This document shows, piece after piece, positions 2,582 to 35,978 of a stretch of DNA of 35,978 nucleotides. Under the pieces are notes generated by a model, which was not told the origin of the DNA, did no database searches, and saw only the letters and a program-made list of their open reading frames with translations. The position numbers and the translations under genes were made by a program. Source of the stretch: an uncultured Opitutaceae bacterium (GTDB lineage: Bacteria > Verrucomicrobiota > Verrucomicrobiia > Opitutales > Opitutaceae). The DNA is taken from contig CAIYUN010000006.1 in NCBI GenBank assembly GCA_903929355.1, forward strand, positions 1 to 35,978, in the 5' to 3' direction. Position 1 is the first letter of the stretch. Every line of letters starts with the position of its first letter.

Positions 2582-2703
2582 GCAAAGACGGCAAAGGGAC
2601 GACGGAGGTCAGAATTATTAATCGCTAATACCAACGTCTCGTAAGTTTTAGACTTTTGGGCAACGGTCCCAACAGTTTGACTTACGGACGGCGCGCCCAT
2701 CAG

Positions 2704-2743
2704 CCGTCGCCCCGCCGTCGCATGGCTTTGGCGTGGCAAGCAA
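2704..2743 (+). repeat. REP element, near-identical to the one at 34663-34702
   Basis: A 40 bp unit beginning CCGTCGCCCCGCCGTCGC and ending GGCAAGCAA. The copy at 34663-34702 differs by a single base (GCGTGGC here, GCGCGGC there). Such close identity 32 kb apart indicates a mobile or recently copied element. The rest of 2744-2849 holds another short GC-rich inverted segment (GGCGCGACAAGGCGGTCGCGCC) and nothing else I recognise. Confidence 0.7.
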
Positions 2744-2849
2744 GCCTTCGGCGCGACAAGGCGGTCGCGCCCTACCCCCGGAGCAAACACAAAATCTAAA
2801 TCACAACAGACGTTGGTATGACTCCCAGACCTTCCCGCCGTATGATGCA

Positions 2850-5900: not shown

Positions 5901-6539
5901 AAAGATCTGCACCTCGATATGGCGGGCGTGCTCGACAAACTTCTCCAAAAACAGCCCGCCCTCCTTGAAATTGTTTTTCGCCAGCCGGCCGACCGAGGCA
6001 AAGGCGGCGGCGAGCTCGGCGGGCTGGTGGATGAGCGCCATGCCGATGCCGCCGCCGCCGGCGGTGCTCTTGAGCATGACGGGGTAGCCGATCCGCGCCG
6101 CCTCGGACCGGGCGTGCTCCTCGTCGCGCAGCAGCGGGGAGCCGGGCAGCAGGGGGACCTGGTGCTGTTGGGCGATGGCGCGGGCGGCATGCTTGAGGCC
6201 AAACGCGCGCATCTGGTCGCCGGTGGGCCCGATGAAAACGAGGCCGGCGGCGGCGCAGGCATCGGCGAACGCGGGGTTCTCGGAGAGAAAACCGTAGCCG
6301 GGATGGACGGCCTGCGCGCCGGTGGCCAGCGCGGCGGCGATGATCTTGTCGGCGTCGAGGTAACTTTGCGCGGCCGGCGCGGGGCCCAGGTGGACCGACT
6401 CGTCGGCCTGCCGGACGTGGAGCGAGTGCGCGTCGGCGTCCGAATAGACGGCCACCGAACGCACCCCCATTTTTTTCAACGTGCGGATGACGCGGCAGGC
6501 GATGGCGCCGCGGTTGGCGATGAGGACTTTGGTGAACAT
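2925..6539 (-). CDS. uca: Biotin-dependent urea/guanidine carboxylase
   Basis: A 1204-residue multidomain enzyme. The N-terminal ~450 residues are a biotin carboxylase (KVLIANRGAIACRVIRT at the start, LKSTAGGGGIGM nucleotide loop, EVNTRLQVEH catalytic motif). A KipA/AHS2 half follows from about residue 470 (TVQDYPGRLGYWAVGVPPSG), then a KipI/AHS1 half after about 830 (VCYRRAGDSNLLVEYGPL); together they form the carboxyltransferase. The C-terminus is a biotinyl domain with ESMKMEV, biotinyl-lysine at about 1169. The family ATP-dependently carboxylates urea to allophanate or guanidine to carboxyguanidine. The two DUF1989 genes directly upstream favour guanidine, but the sequence alone does not settle this. 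The start ATG at 6539 overlaps the upstream stop by one base (TGATG), indicating translational coupling. The frame stays open upstream to 7109, but that part overlaps the DUF1989 gene. It is the last gene of the operon; no allophanate hydrolase follows. Confidence 0.93.
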   Translation of the reverse strand: MFTKVLIANRGAIACRVIRTLKKMGVRSVAVYSDADAHSLHVRQADESVHLGPAPAAQSYLDADKIIAAALATGAQAVHPGYGFLSENPAFADACAAAGLVFIGPTGDQMRAFGLKHAARAIAQQHQVPLLPGSPLLRDEEHARSEAARIGYPVMLKSTAGGGGIGMALIHQPAELAAAFASVGRLAKNNFKEGGLFLEKFVEHARHIEVQIFGDGRGHVVAVGERDCSVQRRNQKVIEETPAPGLMPGQRARLLACATRLGVAAGYQNAGTVEFVYDNLTGEFYFLEVNTRLQVEHGVTEEVTGVDLVEWMLRAAAGELDLSSWSAAPRGASIQVRVYAEDPGKNFQPAAGTLTDVHFPASARIETWVGRGTEVSSFYDPLLAKIIVKGRDRAEALERLDVALAETRLHGLETNLDYLRQIVASDGFRAGGVTTKYLGTLRYAASTVDVLEGGTQTTVQDYPGRLGYWAVGVPPSGPMDGRSFRLANRLVGNPAASAGLELTVQGPALRFNAAAVIALTGARMPATLDGQPVPWHSAFRVSPGQTLRLAAVVGPGLRTYLAIRHGFDVPDYLGSKATFTLGRFGGHAGRALRAGDVLRVNRGTPAASAAPLLGAPAGLLPPLTHEWTIGVLHGPHGAPDFFTAGDIDVLFSTAYEVHYNSARTGVRLIGPKPQWARRDGGEAGLHPSNLHDNAYAIGAIDFTGDMPIILGPDGPSCGGFVCPATIVQAELWKIGQLKPGDKVRFRALTVDEARIAVVAQDAELESLVPARRPSESRGQIHPASFAAPAIVQQIPGRPDAPAVCYRRAGDSNLLVEYGPLVLDLALRMRIHALQTWLERHPPPGLIDLTPGIRSLQVHFDSRVLPLEQLMETLRRAEGELPAVDDIEVPSRIVHLPLSWEDESTLLAIRKYMQLVRPDAPWCPSNLEFIRRINGLDAVADVHRIAFAASYLILALGDVYLGAPVATPVDPRHRLVTTKYNPARTWTPENAVGIGGAYLCIYGMEGPGGYQFIGRTCQMWNRYQQTAEFTDGHPWLLRFFDQIRFYPVTNAELTKFREDFPQGRVGLRIEETTFRLRDYQDFLATHAETISAFKARQQAAFEAERHRWEQNGQLDYAGEAEAAAVGDEQAIPAGCTAVPAHIPGNIWKIAVVAGAEVREGDVLVILESMKMEVTVVAGRAGKVREVRCAEGRPVNAGETLVVLES

Positions 6540-7174
6540 CACGGCTCCCAGATCAACACCTCGATGGGGGTGGGGTTGTAGGCGTTGCAGGGATTGTTCA
6601 GCTGCGGACAGTTGGAGATCACGCAGACGACGTCGCGCTCGGCGCGGAGCTCGACATAGCAGCCCGGGGCGGAGACGCCGTCGGCGAAGGTGAGCCGGCC
6701 GTCGGGGGTCACGGGCACATTCATGAAGAAGTTGATGTTGCAGGTGAGGTCGCGCTTCCCGAGATCGGCGCGCCACGCGTGCACGCCGCAGATGAAGCTG
6801 TCGCGGCAGGCGTGCAGGGGCTCCGTGGCGGGCGAGTAGCGCATGGTGTTGCTCTCGCGCGAACAGGCCCCGCCAAGCGTGTCGTGGCGGCCACAGGTGT
6901 CCGCCACAATGGTGAGCAGCGGATCGCCGAGCGACGACATCAGCACCGTGCCCGTGGAGAGATAAAGGGCGGCCTGGTGGCGGATGGTGTCGCTGGCGCT
7001 GTAGCGGTTGACGGGATCGTGGGCGTCGTAGAACAGCGTGTCGGCGGCCTGGTTGCCCTCCACATCCACGATGCGGAGGATCTGGCCGCGCTTGATTTCG
7101 TGCGTCCACGGGTCGCCGGCGGGGATGACATGGCGGTGGGCGGCCGTGGCGGGATCGAGGGAACTGGTGGTCAT
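6539..7174 (-). CDS. DUF1989 protein, urea carboxylase-associated protein 2 (carboxyguanidine deiminase subunit family)
   Basis: 211 residues, full length for the family. Hallmarks: [20 protein letters not shown] near residue 33, [19 protein letters not shown] around 85-105 with the probable metal-binding His and Cys, [16 protein letters not shown], and the C-terminal [19 protein letters not shown]. These match UAAP2-type DUF1989 proteins. Homologous pairs are known to form a Ni-dependent carboxyguanidine deiminase (CgdAB), which turns carboxyguanidine into allophanate. The gene sits 4 bases after its partner at 7179-7928 and overlaps the carboxylase start by one base, so the three are almost certainly co-translated. 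Whether this is subunit A or B cannot be told from sequence here. The regulator two genes upstream is NikR-like, a pleasing match to a nickel-dependent enzyme, but that link is inference. Confidence 0.88.
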
Positions 7175-7178
7175 GGGG

Positions 7179-7928
7179 TCAGTCGCGGAGGGTGACGTAG
7201 GTCTCGGTGTTGCGGAAGGCCCGCTCGTTTTCGGGGCACGAAAGCCGGCAGGCGTCGTCCACGGCGGCCGGCGGCGTACGGAAGACCTCGAGCCGGACCT
7301 GGCGCGGGTGATAGCCCGGGTCGGGGTCGAGCGGATGCTGGCAGGTGTTGAGCACGACCAGGGTGTCCAGCTCGAAGCGGAGCTCGATCTGGTCGCCGGG
7401 CCGGGAGTTGCCGGGGATGAAGGTGAGACGGCCGGCGTCGTCGGCCACGACCTTGCTGAAAAGATTCAGGTTGGGCACCAGATCGCGCGGTCCGAGACCC
7501 CACTTGGCGAGCTCGATCAGGAAACAATCGCGGGCGTTGCGGTGAAAGTCGTTGCGCGCCGTCTGGTAGTTGCTGGTCCCGCCGTATTTTTGGGCGACCA
7601 GTTTGGCGTCGGAGCAGCCGCAGACGGTGTCGTGCCAGCCGACGCTGTCGGCGGTGAGCGAGGCGAGGATGCGCCCCATGTCGGAATGGAGACAATAGGG
7701 CTGGCGCAGATAGAAAATGTGCTGGCCCTTGAGCGTGTCCGGCAGGTTGTACCGCTCGGAGGGGACGTCGGCATGGTACAGCAGCAGCCCGACATTGGCC
7801 CCGCCGTCGAGGTCGGTGAGGCGCAGGGATTTGCCGCGCGAGAGCACGGCGGACCACATGCCCGCATGGGTGAGGATCCGGGTAAGGATGGGCGCGGCGG
7901 GCGCGGCGGGAAGGGCGGGGGCGACCAT
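7179..7928 (-). CDS. DUF1989 protein, urea carboxylase-associated protein 1 (carboxyguanidine deiminase subunit family)
   Basis: 249 residues. Motifs of UAAP1-type DUF1989 proteins are present: [20 protein letters not shown] near residue 35, [26 protein letters not shown] around 97, [16 protein letters not shown], and [10 protein letters not shown], ending in a Cys-containing tail ([15 protein letters not shown]). It is the partner of the gene at 6539-7174 in the proposed carboxyguanidine deiminase. It is the first gene of the second half of the operon: the 93 bp gap upstream contains the same GGTGTTAC direct repeat as the promoter region of the transporter genes, so it probably has its own regulated promoter. 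No Shine-Dalgarno motif precedes the ATG; the leader is C/T-rich (CGCTCCTCCGCC). Confidence 0.87.
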
Positions 7929-30150: not shown

Positions 30151-33492
<3,342 letters not shown>

Positions 33493-34620
33493 AATCTTCG
33501 GAATTTTTAACCACGGATCACACGGAGTTTCACGGATCCGAGAAATGGTATTTATATAGAACATTATGGCACCCGGTGATATATTTGATGGATGGCATTT
33601 TGACATAAAAACAGCGGCGATGACGCTTCTTGGAACGCCTCTTATATTGTACTTTATAGGTATCATTAGAAGGAATATAAAAAGCTCTGGAACATACGCA
33701 CTCGAAGGTGGTATGTATTGGGCGAGTCGCTCGCTTAAACGGTCTCTCGCCGGAAGTCTTAGTTTAAAACAGTACTGTCGACTGCGCCTCGCGGATGAGA
33801 ACCAATATTTGTTCGTGCCTTCAAGTCTCGACATCAAACTTCATATTGACAAAGTATTCGTTAAGCTATCGCTGATTAATCAAGGGCAGATTGATTCACA
33901 CTACAGCCATAGTGATATTCTTAATATTGGTAATCGTCTCAGAGTTATCGGAGATCCGGGATCTGGTAAATCATCGCTTGTAAAAAGGCTTTTTCGTGAC
34001 GCATGTTACACTGCACTATCAAAGCCATCCCAAGCAAAACTACCTGTCATTATAGAACTTAAGACTATTGTTGTTGGAAACCAGAAGACAGATAAACTGG
34101 GTGAATGGTTCTTAAAGAGAATTAGAGAAGGGGTCCGTAAAAGTTCCGTATATAAGATGGACGAATGCTTTGATTCGTACACGCATAATTCCGGAGTGCT
34201 TGTACTTCTTGATGGTCTTGACGAAGTATCTACCACGAATTACCAGAAAGTCCAACATGCAATTCTTGGTTTAAGTAAAACACTTTCAGAGAAGGGGCCA
34301 AATAATTCTCTGGTCCTAACAATGCGTACGCAGTTCCATCAGCAGGTTAAGGATGATTACCGAAATATATTTGGAACAGCTCTATTTCTTAAGCCTTTTT
34401 CTCCAAGTGATATATATGAGTTTCTTGTGCGCTGGCCATTTCAGAAAAGTCGATCCAAACATATTGCGCGAATCTATGGCGAGCTAACCGATCGACCGAC
34501 ATTGAGAGAGATGTGTAGCAATCCGCTAATACTTTCTATGTATGTGGCGGAAGATCAAGCTGCTGGTCACGTCGTTGCACCTGAATCAAGAACAGAATTT
34601 TATCGTAAGGTAGCCAAGGT

Positions 34621-34702
34621 AAACTGCAGCGACGTAGCCGCAGATCCGACTCGGAGCGTCCGCCGTCGCCCCGCCGTCGCATGGCTTTGGCGCGGCAAGC
34701 AA
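34621..34702 (+). repeat. REP element at the NACHT breakpoint
   Basis: Contains AGCGACGTAGCCGCAGATCC followed by a 40 bp unit at 34663-34702 (CCGTCGCCCCGCCGTCGC to GGCAAGCAA) that matches 2704-2743 except for one base. It separates the NACHT fragment from an unrelated antisense gene fragment, marking an insertion or recombination point. Confidence 0.75.
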
Positions 34703-34892
34703 TTTCGATTTGTCCAGTCAGTTGAGCGTCAGAGCTGTGTAAAATCATCTTGCCGTCGGGCGAAACCCGGATCATCACAAGCTCATTCACCATCAACCAG
34801 TCGCCCACCATTCCGGCCGGAATATTGTTTGCGGCGGGTTGAGCGGCTAACGCCACCAGGAAAGGGAAGCTGGCGGCAAGGTACCGGCGGGA
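34703..34892 (-). pseudogene. Stump of a small exported protein
   Basis: Minus-strand frame: SRRYLAASFPFLVALAAQPA resembles the end of a signal peptide, followed by IPAGMVGDWLMVNELVMIRV and SPDGKMILHSSDAQLTGQIEI. Then the frame runs into the REP element (ACRAKAMRRRG). GDW...V...G....H is reminiscent of small lipocalin-like or TIGR03067-type secreted proteins, but no family can be assigned. Its 3' end is lost to the REP element and its 5' end overlaps the transposase gene, so both ends look broken. Confidence 0.5.
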
Positions 34893-34932
34893 TGTTTTTG
34901 AGTCGGCGGGTGCCGCCCAGGCCTTCGTTACT

Positions 34933-35817
34933 GTGCTGGAGGAAACACTACCTCGGTATGGCTGGCGATTGCACGCCTACGTGATCATGCGGAACCATTT
35001 TCATCTGGCGCTGGAAACACCCCGGCCGAACTTGGTCGATGGCATGCACTGGCTGCAGAGCACGTACGCCACCCGTTTCAACCGTTTCCGGGGAGAGAGC
35101 GGACACTTATTTCAGGGACGGTATCAATCGATCTTGATCGAGGATCTGGTGGCTTTGGGGAAGGTGGTGGATTACATTCACCTCAACCCGGTCAGGGCTG
35201 GAATTGTGCCGGTCGAACAGGTGGCGGCGTTTCGGTGGAGCAGCCTGCTCCGTTTCGTCAAAGGCCCGCGCTTTCCGGGGCTCGTAGCGGTGGACTGGCT
35301 CCCGAAACGGGGCGGGTGGAGTGATACGACCGAAGGATGGCAGGGGTATGTCACGCATTTGGCGGCGTTGTCAGGAAATCCAGAGAGGCAAAAGGAGGAG
35401 GGGTTCGAAGGGTTTTCGCACGGTTGGGCGATTGGCACCTCCGGTTGGCGCCGGGCGGTGGCGAAGGATCACGCCGACCTCGCGCTCAGTCCCGGCATCC
35501 AGGCGGGCGAGGTGAAAGAGATCAAACACACGCGTTGGGCAGAGCGTCTGGAGCTTAAGCTCGCAACGGTCGGCCATTCGCTGGCCGAGTCGGTGGCCGC
35601 ACCCAAAGGCGCAGCGTGGAAGTGGGAGGTCGCCCTCCGCATGCGGCAGGAAGAGGGAGCGTCCGTGAAGTGGATCGCCGAGCAGATGGGGATTGGAAAC
35701 GTGAACGCGCTCCGGGCCCGCCTAAGCCGTGAACAACGGAAGCCAGGGCGAACACGCCGGGTTGGCGATGGGCATCGCGAGGGAAAGAATGCTCTAATGT
35801 CACATCGTTCGGCCTGA
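34933..35817 (+). CDS. REP-associated tyrosine transposase (RAYT, Y1/IS200-like), N-terminus truncated
   Basis: 294 residues from GTG 34933; the frame extends to 34843 and the residues RYRRDVFESAGAAQAFVTVL just upstream of the GTG still look like RAYT, so the intact protein started further upstream and its first strand (usually ending ...YHV..RG) is missing. The HUH motif is NHFHLALE, and the catalytic Tyr is in VVDYIHLNPVRAGIV. The C-terminal extension with a helix-turn-helix (SVKWIAEQMGIGNVNALRAR) is complete. RAYTs bind and cleave palindromic REP sequences and are thought to have spread them through genomes. The many REP-like elements in this window are natural substrates, although the family-to-family match cannot be tested here. 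Activity of this copy is doubtful because the N-terminal beta strand is part of the catalytic fold. Confidence 0.85.
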   Translation: MLEETLPRYGWRLHAYVIMRNHFHLALETPRPNLVDGMHWLQSTYATRFNRFRGESGHLFQGRYQSILIEDLVALGKVVDYIHLNPVRAGIVPVEQVAAFRWSSLLRFVKGPRFPGLVAVDWLPKRGGWSDTTEGWQGYVTHLAALSGNPERQKEEGFEGFSHGWAIGTSGWRRAVAKDHADLALSPGIQAGEVKEIKHTRWAERLELKLATVGHSLAESVAAPKGAAWKWEVALRMRQEEGASVKWIAEQMGIGNVNALRARLSREQRKPGRTRRVGDGHREGKNALMSHRSA

Positions 35818-35837: not shown

Positions 35838-35978
35838 CTAGTGTAGTGTCTCATTAATAGCGTGACAATGAGTATTCGCGGCCTTTACTCTGCTGCGATG
35901 AGCAGACTCAATGCCCGGGTGGATATCAGCGGTGATCAACGCGCGGAGTTGGAACGCCTGGTGGCGGCGCCGACGACG
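35838..35978 (+). mobile_element. Left end of an IS630-family insertion sequence (runs off the window)
   Basis: After CACCTA the sequence GTGTAGTGTCTCATTAATAG precedes a transposase start, fitting an IS630 terminal region inserted next to a TA dinucleotide. The right end is outside the window, so terminal repeats cannot be compared. Confidence 0.5.
35868..35978 (+). CDS. IS630-family transposase, N-terminal fragment (partial at window end)
   Basis: ATG 35868 begins MSIRGLYSAAMSRLNARVDI; ATG 35898 in the same frame is the alternative. The segment DISGDQRAELERLVAAPTT is the characteristic opening of IS630-type transposases (x-L-S-x-E-Q-R-x-x-L-E-x-L-x-x-x-x-T). Only 37 codons are inside the window, so the catalytic DDE domain is not visible and integrity cannot be judged. 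Confidence 0.65.
   Translation, partial: MSIRGLYSAAMSRLNARVDISGDQRAELERLVAAPTT

Follow-up and report, generated by a model that had tools for sequence, protein, structure and literature searches.

The window analysed here (the whole stretch of 35,978 nt, positions 1 to 35,978 of the forward strand of contig CAIYUN010000006.1, assembly GCA_903929355.1) comes from an uncultured Opitutaceae bacterium and carries, just beyond the gene for the ribonucleotide reductase (RNR) large subunit, what is most probably a dead pseudogene: a horizontally acquired NACHT gene truncated after codon 349, the lost part of which was probably removed by deletion or rearrangement. The genome is a draft assembly of 91 contigs (96.2% complete). 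The features on which this reading is built are collected in Table 1.

Table 1 Coordinates of the features discussed in the text, numbered from the first letter of the window.
Feature	Position	Strand	Basis or remark
MITE-like element, complete 190-nt copy, 32 kb from the break	2629..2818	+	Element delimitation
RNR large subunit gene, its 3' flank being the site of the NACHT gene	30151..33492	+	Pfam Ribonuc_red_lgC (3.7e-184), ATP-cone, Ribonuc_red_lgN
AT-rich spacer, 73 nt, GC 0.37, with CCACGGATCACACGGA-type repeat	33493..33565		Repeat recurs in genome
NACHT STAND gene remnant, codons 1-349	33566..34612	+	Pfam NACHT and relatives L026-L028
Putative N-terminal membrane helix, residues 16-34	33611..33667	+	Kyte-Doolittle 1.88
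Walker A, GDPGSGKS, residues 129-136	33950..33973	+	Invariant with P0001 and P0002
Walker B stretch, LVLLDGLDE, residues 212-220	34199..34225	+	Invariant with P0001 and P0002
MITE-like element, internal 92-nt fragment, diverged, both terminal repeats gone	34611..34702	+	Repeat comparison within genome
Filler, origin unassigned, minus-strand frame open	34703..34881		Unmatched in the other 235 of 236 class genomes
RAYT transposase without its first ~20 residues and start	34882..35817	+	NCBIfam NF047646, locus alignments
Repeat at contig end, 141 nt	35838..35978		Common to the ends of contigs C7 and C69 (100% and 99% identity)

The reading frame from 33566 encodes a NACHT domain (Pfam PF05729, 35.1 bits against a cut-off of 26.7, E 1.5e-8), and both Walker motifs, described as intact in the initial annotation, proved invariant in an alignment with two relatives. 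Judged by its domain (a score above the Pfam cut-off together with Walker A and Walker B), the window copy belongs to the NACHT-family STAND NTPases; it lacks the remaining module and C-terminal sensor part, both of which its relatives possess. Elsewhere in the genome the NACHT profile found nothing above its cut-off, the window gene being the sole such match among five at E ≤0.01.

Relatives were sought in a collection holding one genome per species, in a scan that needed exact peptide seeds and gave 27 seed matches. Three were found: in a Chitinophagaceae MAG (L026, 55% identity), in a KSB1 MAG (L027, 51%) and in Azospirillum rugosum (L028, 46%). The first two are intact, with ORFs of 910 aa (P0001) and 1115 aa (P0002), respectively. 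The Azospirillum rugosum relative is split over two frames, with the break near L028 6446-6456, where an assembly or sequencing error is possible; two of the four known copies of the subfamily, this one and that in the window, look broken. The membrane helix proposed for the window protein corresponds to one hydrophobic N-terminal stretch of 19 residues, starting at residue 16, and remains putative as a helix. The equivalent stretch scores 2.08 in the KSB1 and 1.93 in the Azospirillum protein, compared with 1.88 in the window, but the N-terminus of P0001 reaches only 1.6, so that a membrane helix is less sure in the Chitinophagaceae protein and uncertain family-wide.

Similarity of the window protein to these relatives stops at V349 (34610-34612), and the repeat match starts at 34611, in agreement with the end of coding similarity first placed at about that position. 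Beyond the break the relatives continue for 561 (Chitinophagaceae), 765 (KSB1) and 538 (Azospirillum) residues. None of the three ends near it, the one observation that the initial annotation had named as telling against a truncation, and a naturally short NACHT family was rejected in view of the length of these three extensions. Over P0001 residues 351-500 the two intact relatives are 55-58% identical to each other, so the window copy has lost a conserved part and no loose tail. Hydrophobic stretches lie near the end of this part in all three relatives (at 757 and 783 in P0001; 768, 797 and 902 in P0002; 589 and 635 in the Azospirillum part), and P0002 also has a TPR block at about 930-1060. 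Going by these sequences, what has been lost takes in the remainder of the STAND module, a helical portion and, close to the C-terminus, two hydrophobic stretches. The claim that a ligand-sensing C-terminus had been removed holds in that the C-terminal part is gone, but understates a loss that exceeds the sensor and includes the rest of the module. A structure model of P0001, built from five sequences, was poor (mean pLDDT 46.1).

Codons 1-349 are free of stops and frame breaks, and the frame continues uninterrupted to 34984 (472 aa), which indicates that either the loss is recent or a short protein is still made. Continued function of the truncated gene as a small membrane-NACHT protein, such as a regulator or decoy, would suit these unbroken codons, the full set of NTPase motifs and the open frame; we nevertheless consider it very improbable, as the conserved part after residue 349 is gone, no short relative occurs among the three found, and the final 123 residues of the frame, which have no counterpart in the relatives, consist of element, filler and out-of-frame RAYT sequence.

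The description of the gene as AT-rich was borne out, its GC of 0.414 standing against 0.651 for the adjoining RNR gene, and the suggested comparison of codon use with a neighbour gave a GC3 of 0.348 for the remnant against 0.917. Together with this foreign base composition, horizontal acquisition is supported by the placement of the nearest relatives found in other phyla and by searches of 288 genomes of the bacterium's own phylum, in which the NACHT part was matched in its own genome only (P0002 matched two genomes, the second via its TPR part only). P0001 likewise matched a single genome out of 395 in the phylum to which the Chitinophagaceae MAG belongs and one out of 385 in that of the Azospirillum relative's class, both times the genome of the relative itself. 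From such sequence comparisons the NACHT subfamily looks rare, although distant relatives may have been missed owing to the first-look filter in the genome searches and the exact peptide seeds in the species-collection scan. A phage or plasmid origin was dropped: there was no match among 50,697 phage records and none confirmed in viral contigs, and the seven matches among 72,556 plasmid records were only 22-26% identical. The PDB sequence search yielded nothing but a pair of weak hits to an ABC transporter (5.7e-4 and 5.8e-4), which we took as chance.

The piece at the end of the coding similarity had been labelled a REP element. Of ten copies of this element examined in the genome, seven could be delimited, at 174-275 nt, with ends of the form TACCAACGTCT...AGACGTTGGTA in small variants; the undelimited copies were L005 (no recognisable right end), L013 (neither end) and L015 (no core pattern). 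Inspection by eye revealed a perfect 3-bp target duplication in five of the seven (TTA in L008, L010, L011 and L012, TCA in L006, none in L009 or L014), and 3-bp TNA duplications are reminiscent of IS5-type elements. Two copies, L009 and L010, deviate from the others at the second base and the last but one, with matching changes at both ends (TG...CA instead of TA...TA). Complete copies thus have the anatomy of a MITE (short, geneless, with terminal inverted repeats and target duplication). A REP element is a short stand-alone palindromic repeat, and the REP label does not suit a piece that belongs to a longer element with terminal inverted repeats.

The window fragment itself has no ends. Compared with L006 (194 nt), 27 nt are missing on its left and about 75 nt on its right, and the palindrome CTGCGGCGAGGTCGCCGCAG of other copies carries changes in it. 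Matches to 89-92 nt of the fragment, 82-92% identical, occur at five further sites in the genome, with a best whole-fragment match of 92.4% and no identical copy; only the 44-nt core at 34659-34702 recurs unchanged, in one other copy (L005). The reported near-identity to a copy 32 kb away is accurate for 44 nt (42/44 identical, at 2700-2743) and fails for the rest of the 92 nt. With both ends missing and changes inside the palindrome, the sequence is a diverged internal MITE fragment and no fresh insertion. Simple insertion of a REP or another small element into the NACHT gene, as the wording ‘cut off by a REP element’ had it, would explain why the repeat stands exactly at the break; this is already contradicted by the loss of both terminal repeats and by the far side, where the NACHT gene never resumes and the next gene, encoding the RAYT transposase, is cut as well, and we give it almost no credence.

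The RAYT gene passes the cut-off of Pfam Y1_Tnp (33.7 against 23), and against NCBIfam NF047646 it reaches 58.5 bits of 80, matching the profile from position 21 and falling short of the full domain. RAYT relatives were aligned at 29 loci, and at 28 of these (among which L070 and L095 overlap) the alignment starts at the window's 34882 codon; in all 28, the residues NRGN stand directly before this point and the protein then runs on to a start codon absent from the window. A DNA-level match in the host-family genome G1085 also begins at 34882, and other DNA matches begin elsewhere in the RAYT gene. Two genes therefore end sharply about 270 nt apart, with the element fragment and 179 nt of filler between them, and an element without ends next to a RAYT gene sharply cut at 34882 is more readily explained by a deletion or rearrangement that left filler than by an insertion. 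The minus-strand frame at 34701-34883 was considered as a further cut gene and rejected, since none of the 235 class genomes besides this one (236 in all) yielded a relative. The six bases AAGGTA occur at both edges of the 271-nt patch (34607-34612 and 34878-34883) and also inside it, at 34616; they are possibly a trace of the rearrangement, or chance. Further downstream, the repeat that closes the contig is probably a mobile-element end where the assembly broke.

The order of pieces at the break rests on the draft assembly, and its 91 contigs, together with the identity of the 44-nt core to that of L005, allow for a wrong join inside this repeated core, with the gene whole in the organism. 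Such an artefact is improbable: over its full 92 nt the piece matches no other copy exactly, the second break (34882) falls clear of the repeat, and the missing part is on no other contig. This last point follows a check proposed in the initial annotation, a search of the genome for the missing 3' part, in which P0002 gave 22 matches across the 91 contigs: the window copy and 21 in its TPR region (P0002 residues 894-1080), to TPR proteins.

We infer, with fairly high confidence, that the variable DNA directly 3' of the host RNR gene held a foreign gene whose product was a large NACHT STAND protein, probably associated with the membrane, and that a deletion or rearrangement then took everything after codon 349 along with the start of the RAYT gene; the leftover patch of about 270 nt would be an internal MITE fragment and filler. 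In the whole protein, by analogy, the helical C-terminus, which carries TPRs in one relative, would sense an infection cue, the NACHT module would bind nucleotide and assemble, and the N-terminal hydrophobic helix would act on the membrane, stopping the infected cell. The remnant retains its nucleotide-binding core and has lost the rest of the module and the sensor, for which reason it is most likely dead, with no function expected.

The site of the gene was compared across the host family, in which RNR was found in 41 of 61 genomes, our own included. RNR 3' flanks were taken from 37 of the 40 other genomes (all except G1074, G1108 and G1109) as loci L097-L133, including a few very short ones (L099 and L127); ORFs were called by a simple script and the first three scored, 36 loci yielding ORFs and L115 none. 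The flank is variable and often AT-rich: among 29 flanks compared, three locus pairs had related ORFs and only L055/L064 (the same places as L112/L121) exceeded 70% identity. Within the first three ORFs, seven of the 36 loci held R-M or RT genes, namely N6/N4 methylases (L097, L112 and L113), a BglII-type endonuclease beside an ORF that by eye resembles an MT-A70 methylase (L110), the same system as in L112 (L121), an RT with 7.5e-54 to a retron RT model (L118) and a type II methylase (L128). The remaining 29 loci (81 ORFs) held no methylase or RT at 1e-5; other PADLOC matches in them were to mad2, C3a186, PDC-M64, PDC-S10, Cas3-type and LmuB, and the first ORFs of L114 (1277 aa, with an AAA_16 match below threshold) and L106 (a PIN-domain protein) were left uncounted. 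At 33499-33545, just upstream of the NACHT gene, the CCACGGATCACACGGA-type repeat has 14 other matches in the genome.

Two control regions lacked R-M and RT genes: the three ORFs 5' of RNR in 32 of the 37 genomes (without G1083, G1084, G1087, G1095 and G1102), with 0/32 loci, 93 ORFs and one mad2 match, and the three ORFs 3' of recA in 36 host-family genomes, three of them outside the RNR set, with 0/36 loci, 107 ORFs and matches to mad3 (five ORFs), mad2 (three), PDC-M04 (one) and LeoA (one). Fisher's test of 7/36 against 0/68 gave p = 0.0004 (p = 0.001 with L112 and L121 counted once) for a count that is post hoc, covers R-M and RT genes only and would show a smaller contrast between RNR flank and controls if all PADLOC matches were included. 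As the test was framed after R-M genes had been seen in the very loci later counted, the result makes the RNR 3' flank a candidate site for the landing of defence genes, a lead and not proof. Among the literature matches listed, nothing was to the point on a defence hotspot in the RNR flank.

A flank bearing R-M and RT genes fits an anti-phage origin of the NACHT gene without proving it, and such an origin and role are plausible. Alternatively, the intact family may serve other signalling and the remnant be no defence relic, which is compatible with the truncation. For this speaks the lack of any match to a PADLOC model above 1e-4 (best mad8 at 0.037 for the window, Cyclase at 0.0022 for the relatives; none fits), as do the relatives' neighbours, which are mostly ordinary or unmatched genes, with an RNase_T exonuclease near the gene in L026 and a weak endonuclease match, at its cut-off, directly after that in L027. 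We nonetheless judge this alternative rather unlikely in view of the partial similarity to EruA in four NACHT proteins (far below the model's cut-off), the patchy, AT-rich cargo (GC 0.29-0.42) and a site that is common to R-M genes. Downstream of the intact relative in L026, adjacent RNase_T exonuclease ORFs (6309-6872 and 7032-7592) share identical first 60 residues, the result of a recent duplication or an assembly slip.

Taken by itself, the window NACHT gene is an unremarkable pseudogene from an uncommon NACHT subfamily; more interest attaches, as leads, to its intact relatives and to the flank 3' of RNR. The former represent a small NACHT subfamily, unusual in its layout of membrane helices and directly testable against phage in laboratory strains, and the latter may be a place to seek new defence genes in the host family. 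Tentatively, and with more doubt than conviction, we propose that this flank serves the host family as a so far unrecognised site where defence genes (R-M, retron-type RT and NACHT) land, and that the NACHT genes make up a subfamily, rare and without a name, whose products have hydrophobic helices towards either end and would be bacterial NLR-like sensors associated with the membrane, found here in four unrelated lineages and broken in two of four copies. For annotation, a ‘REP’ label at the end of a gene can mask an element fragment left by a deletion.

Three known systems invite comparison. The window resembles REP elements with their RAYT transposases in that a RAYT gene lies 180 nt from the repeat and a palindrome is found inside complete copies of the repeat; it differs in that the repeat belongs to a 174-275-nt element with terminal inverted repeats and, in five of seven copies, 3-bp duplications. 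With EruA (NCBIfam NF058535) the likeness is a partial match over the NACHT and post-NACHT region, at 34.9 bits for the window and 27.8-41.2 for the relatives, seen in all four NACHT-bearing proteins scanned (9.3e-10 to 6.8e-7; P0002 6.1e-11). The window copy is no EruA by that model, whose cut-off of 1000 bits is far above these scores and of whose 1318 positions only about 140-260 match; no paper on antiphage EruA was among the literature matches listed. The antiphage protein bNACHT25 uses an N-terminal nuclease as its effector, with phage sensing mediated by the host chaperone DnaJ (PMC12169576). Such bNACHT proteins share with the relatives a central NACHT module between N- and C-terminal parts, the latter helical in the relatives; where bNACHT25 has an N-terminal PD-(D/E)XK nuclease, the protein described here shows just a hydrophobic helix, and the window copy stops before the rest of the module.
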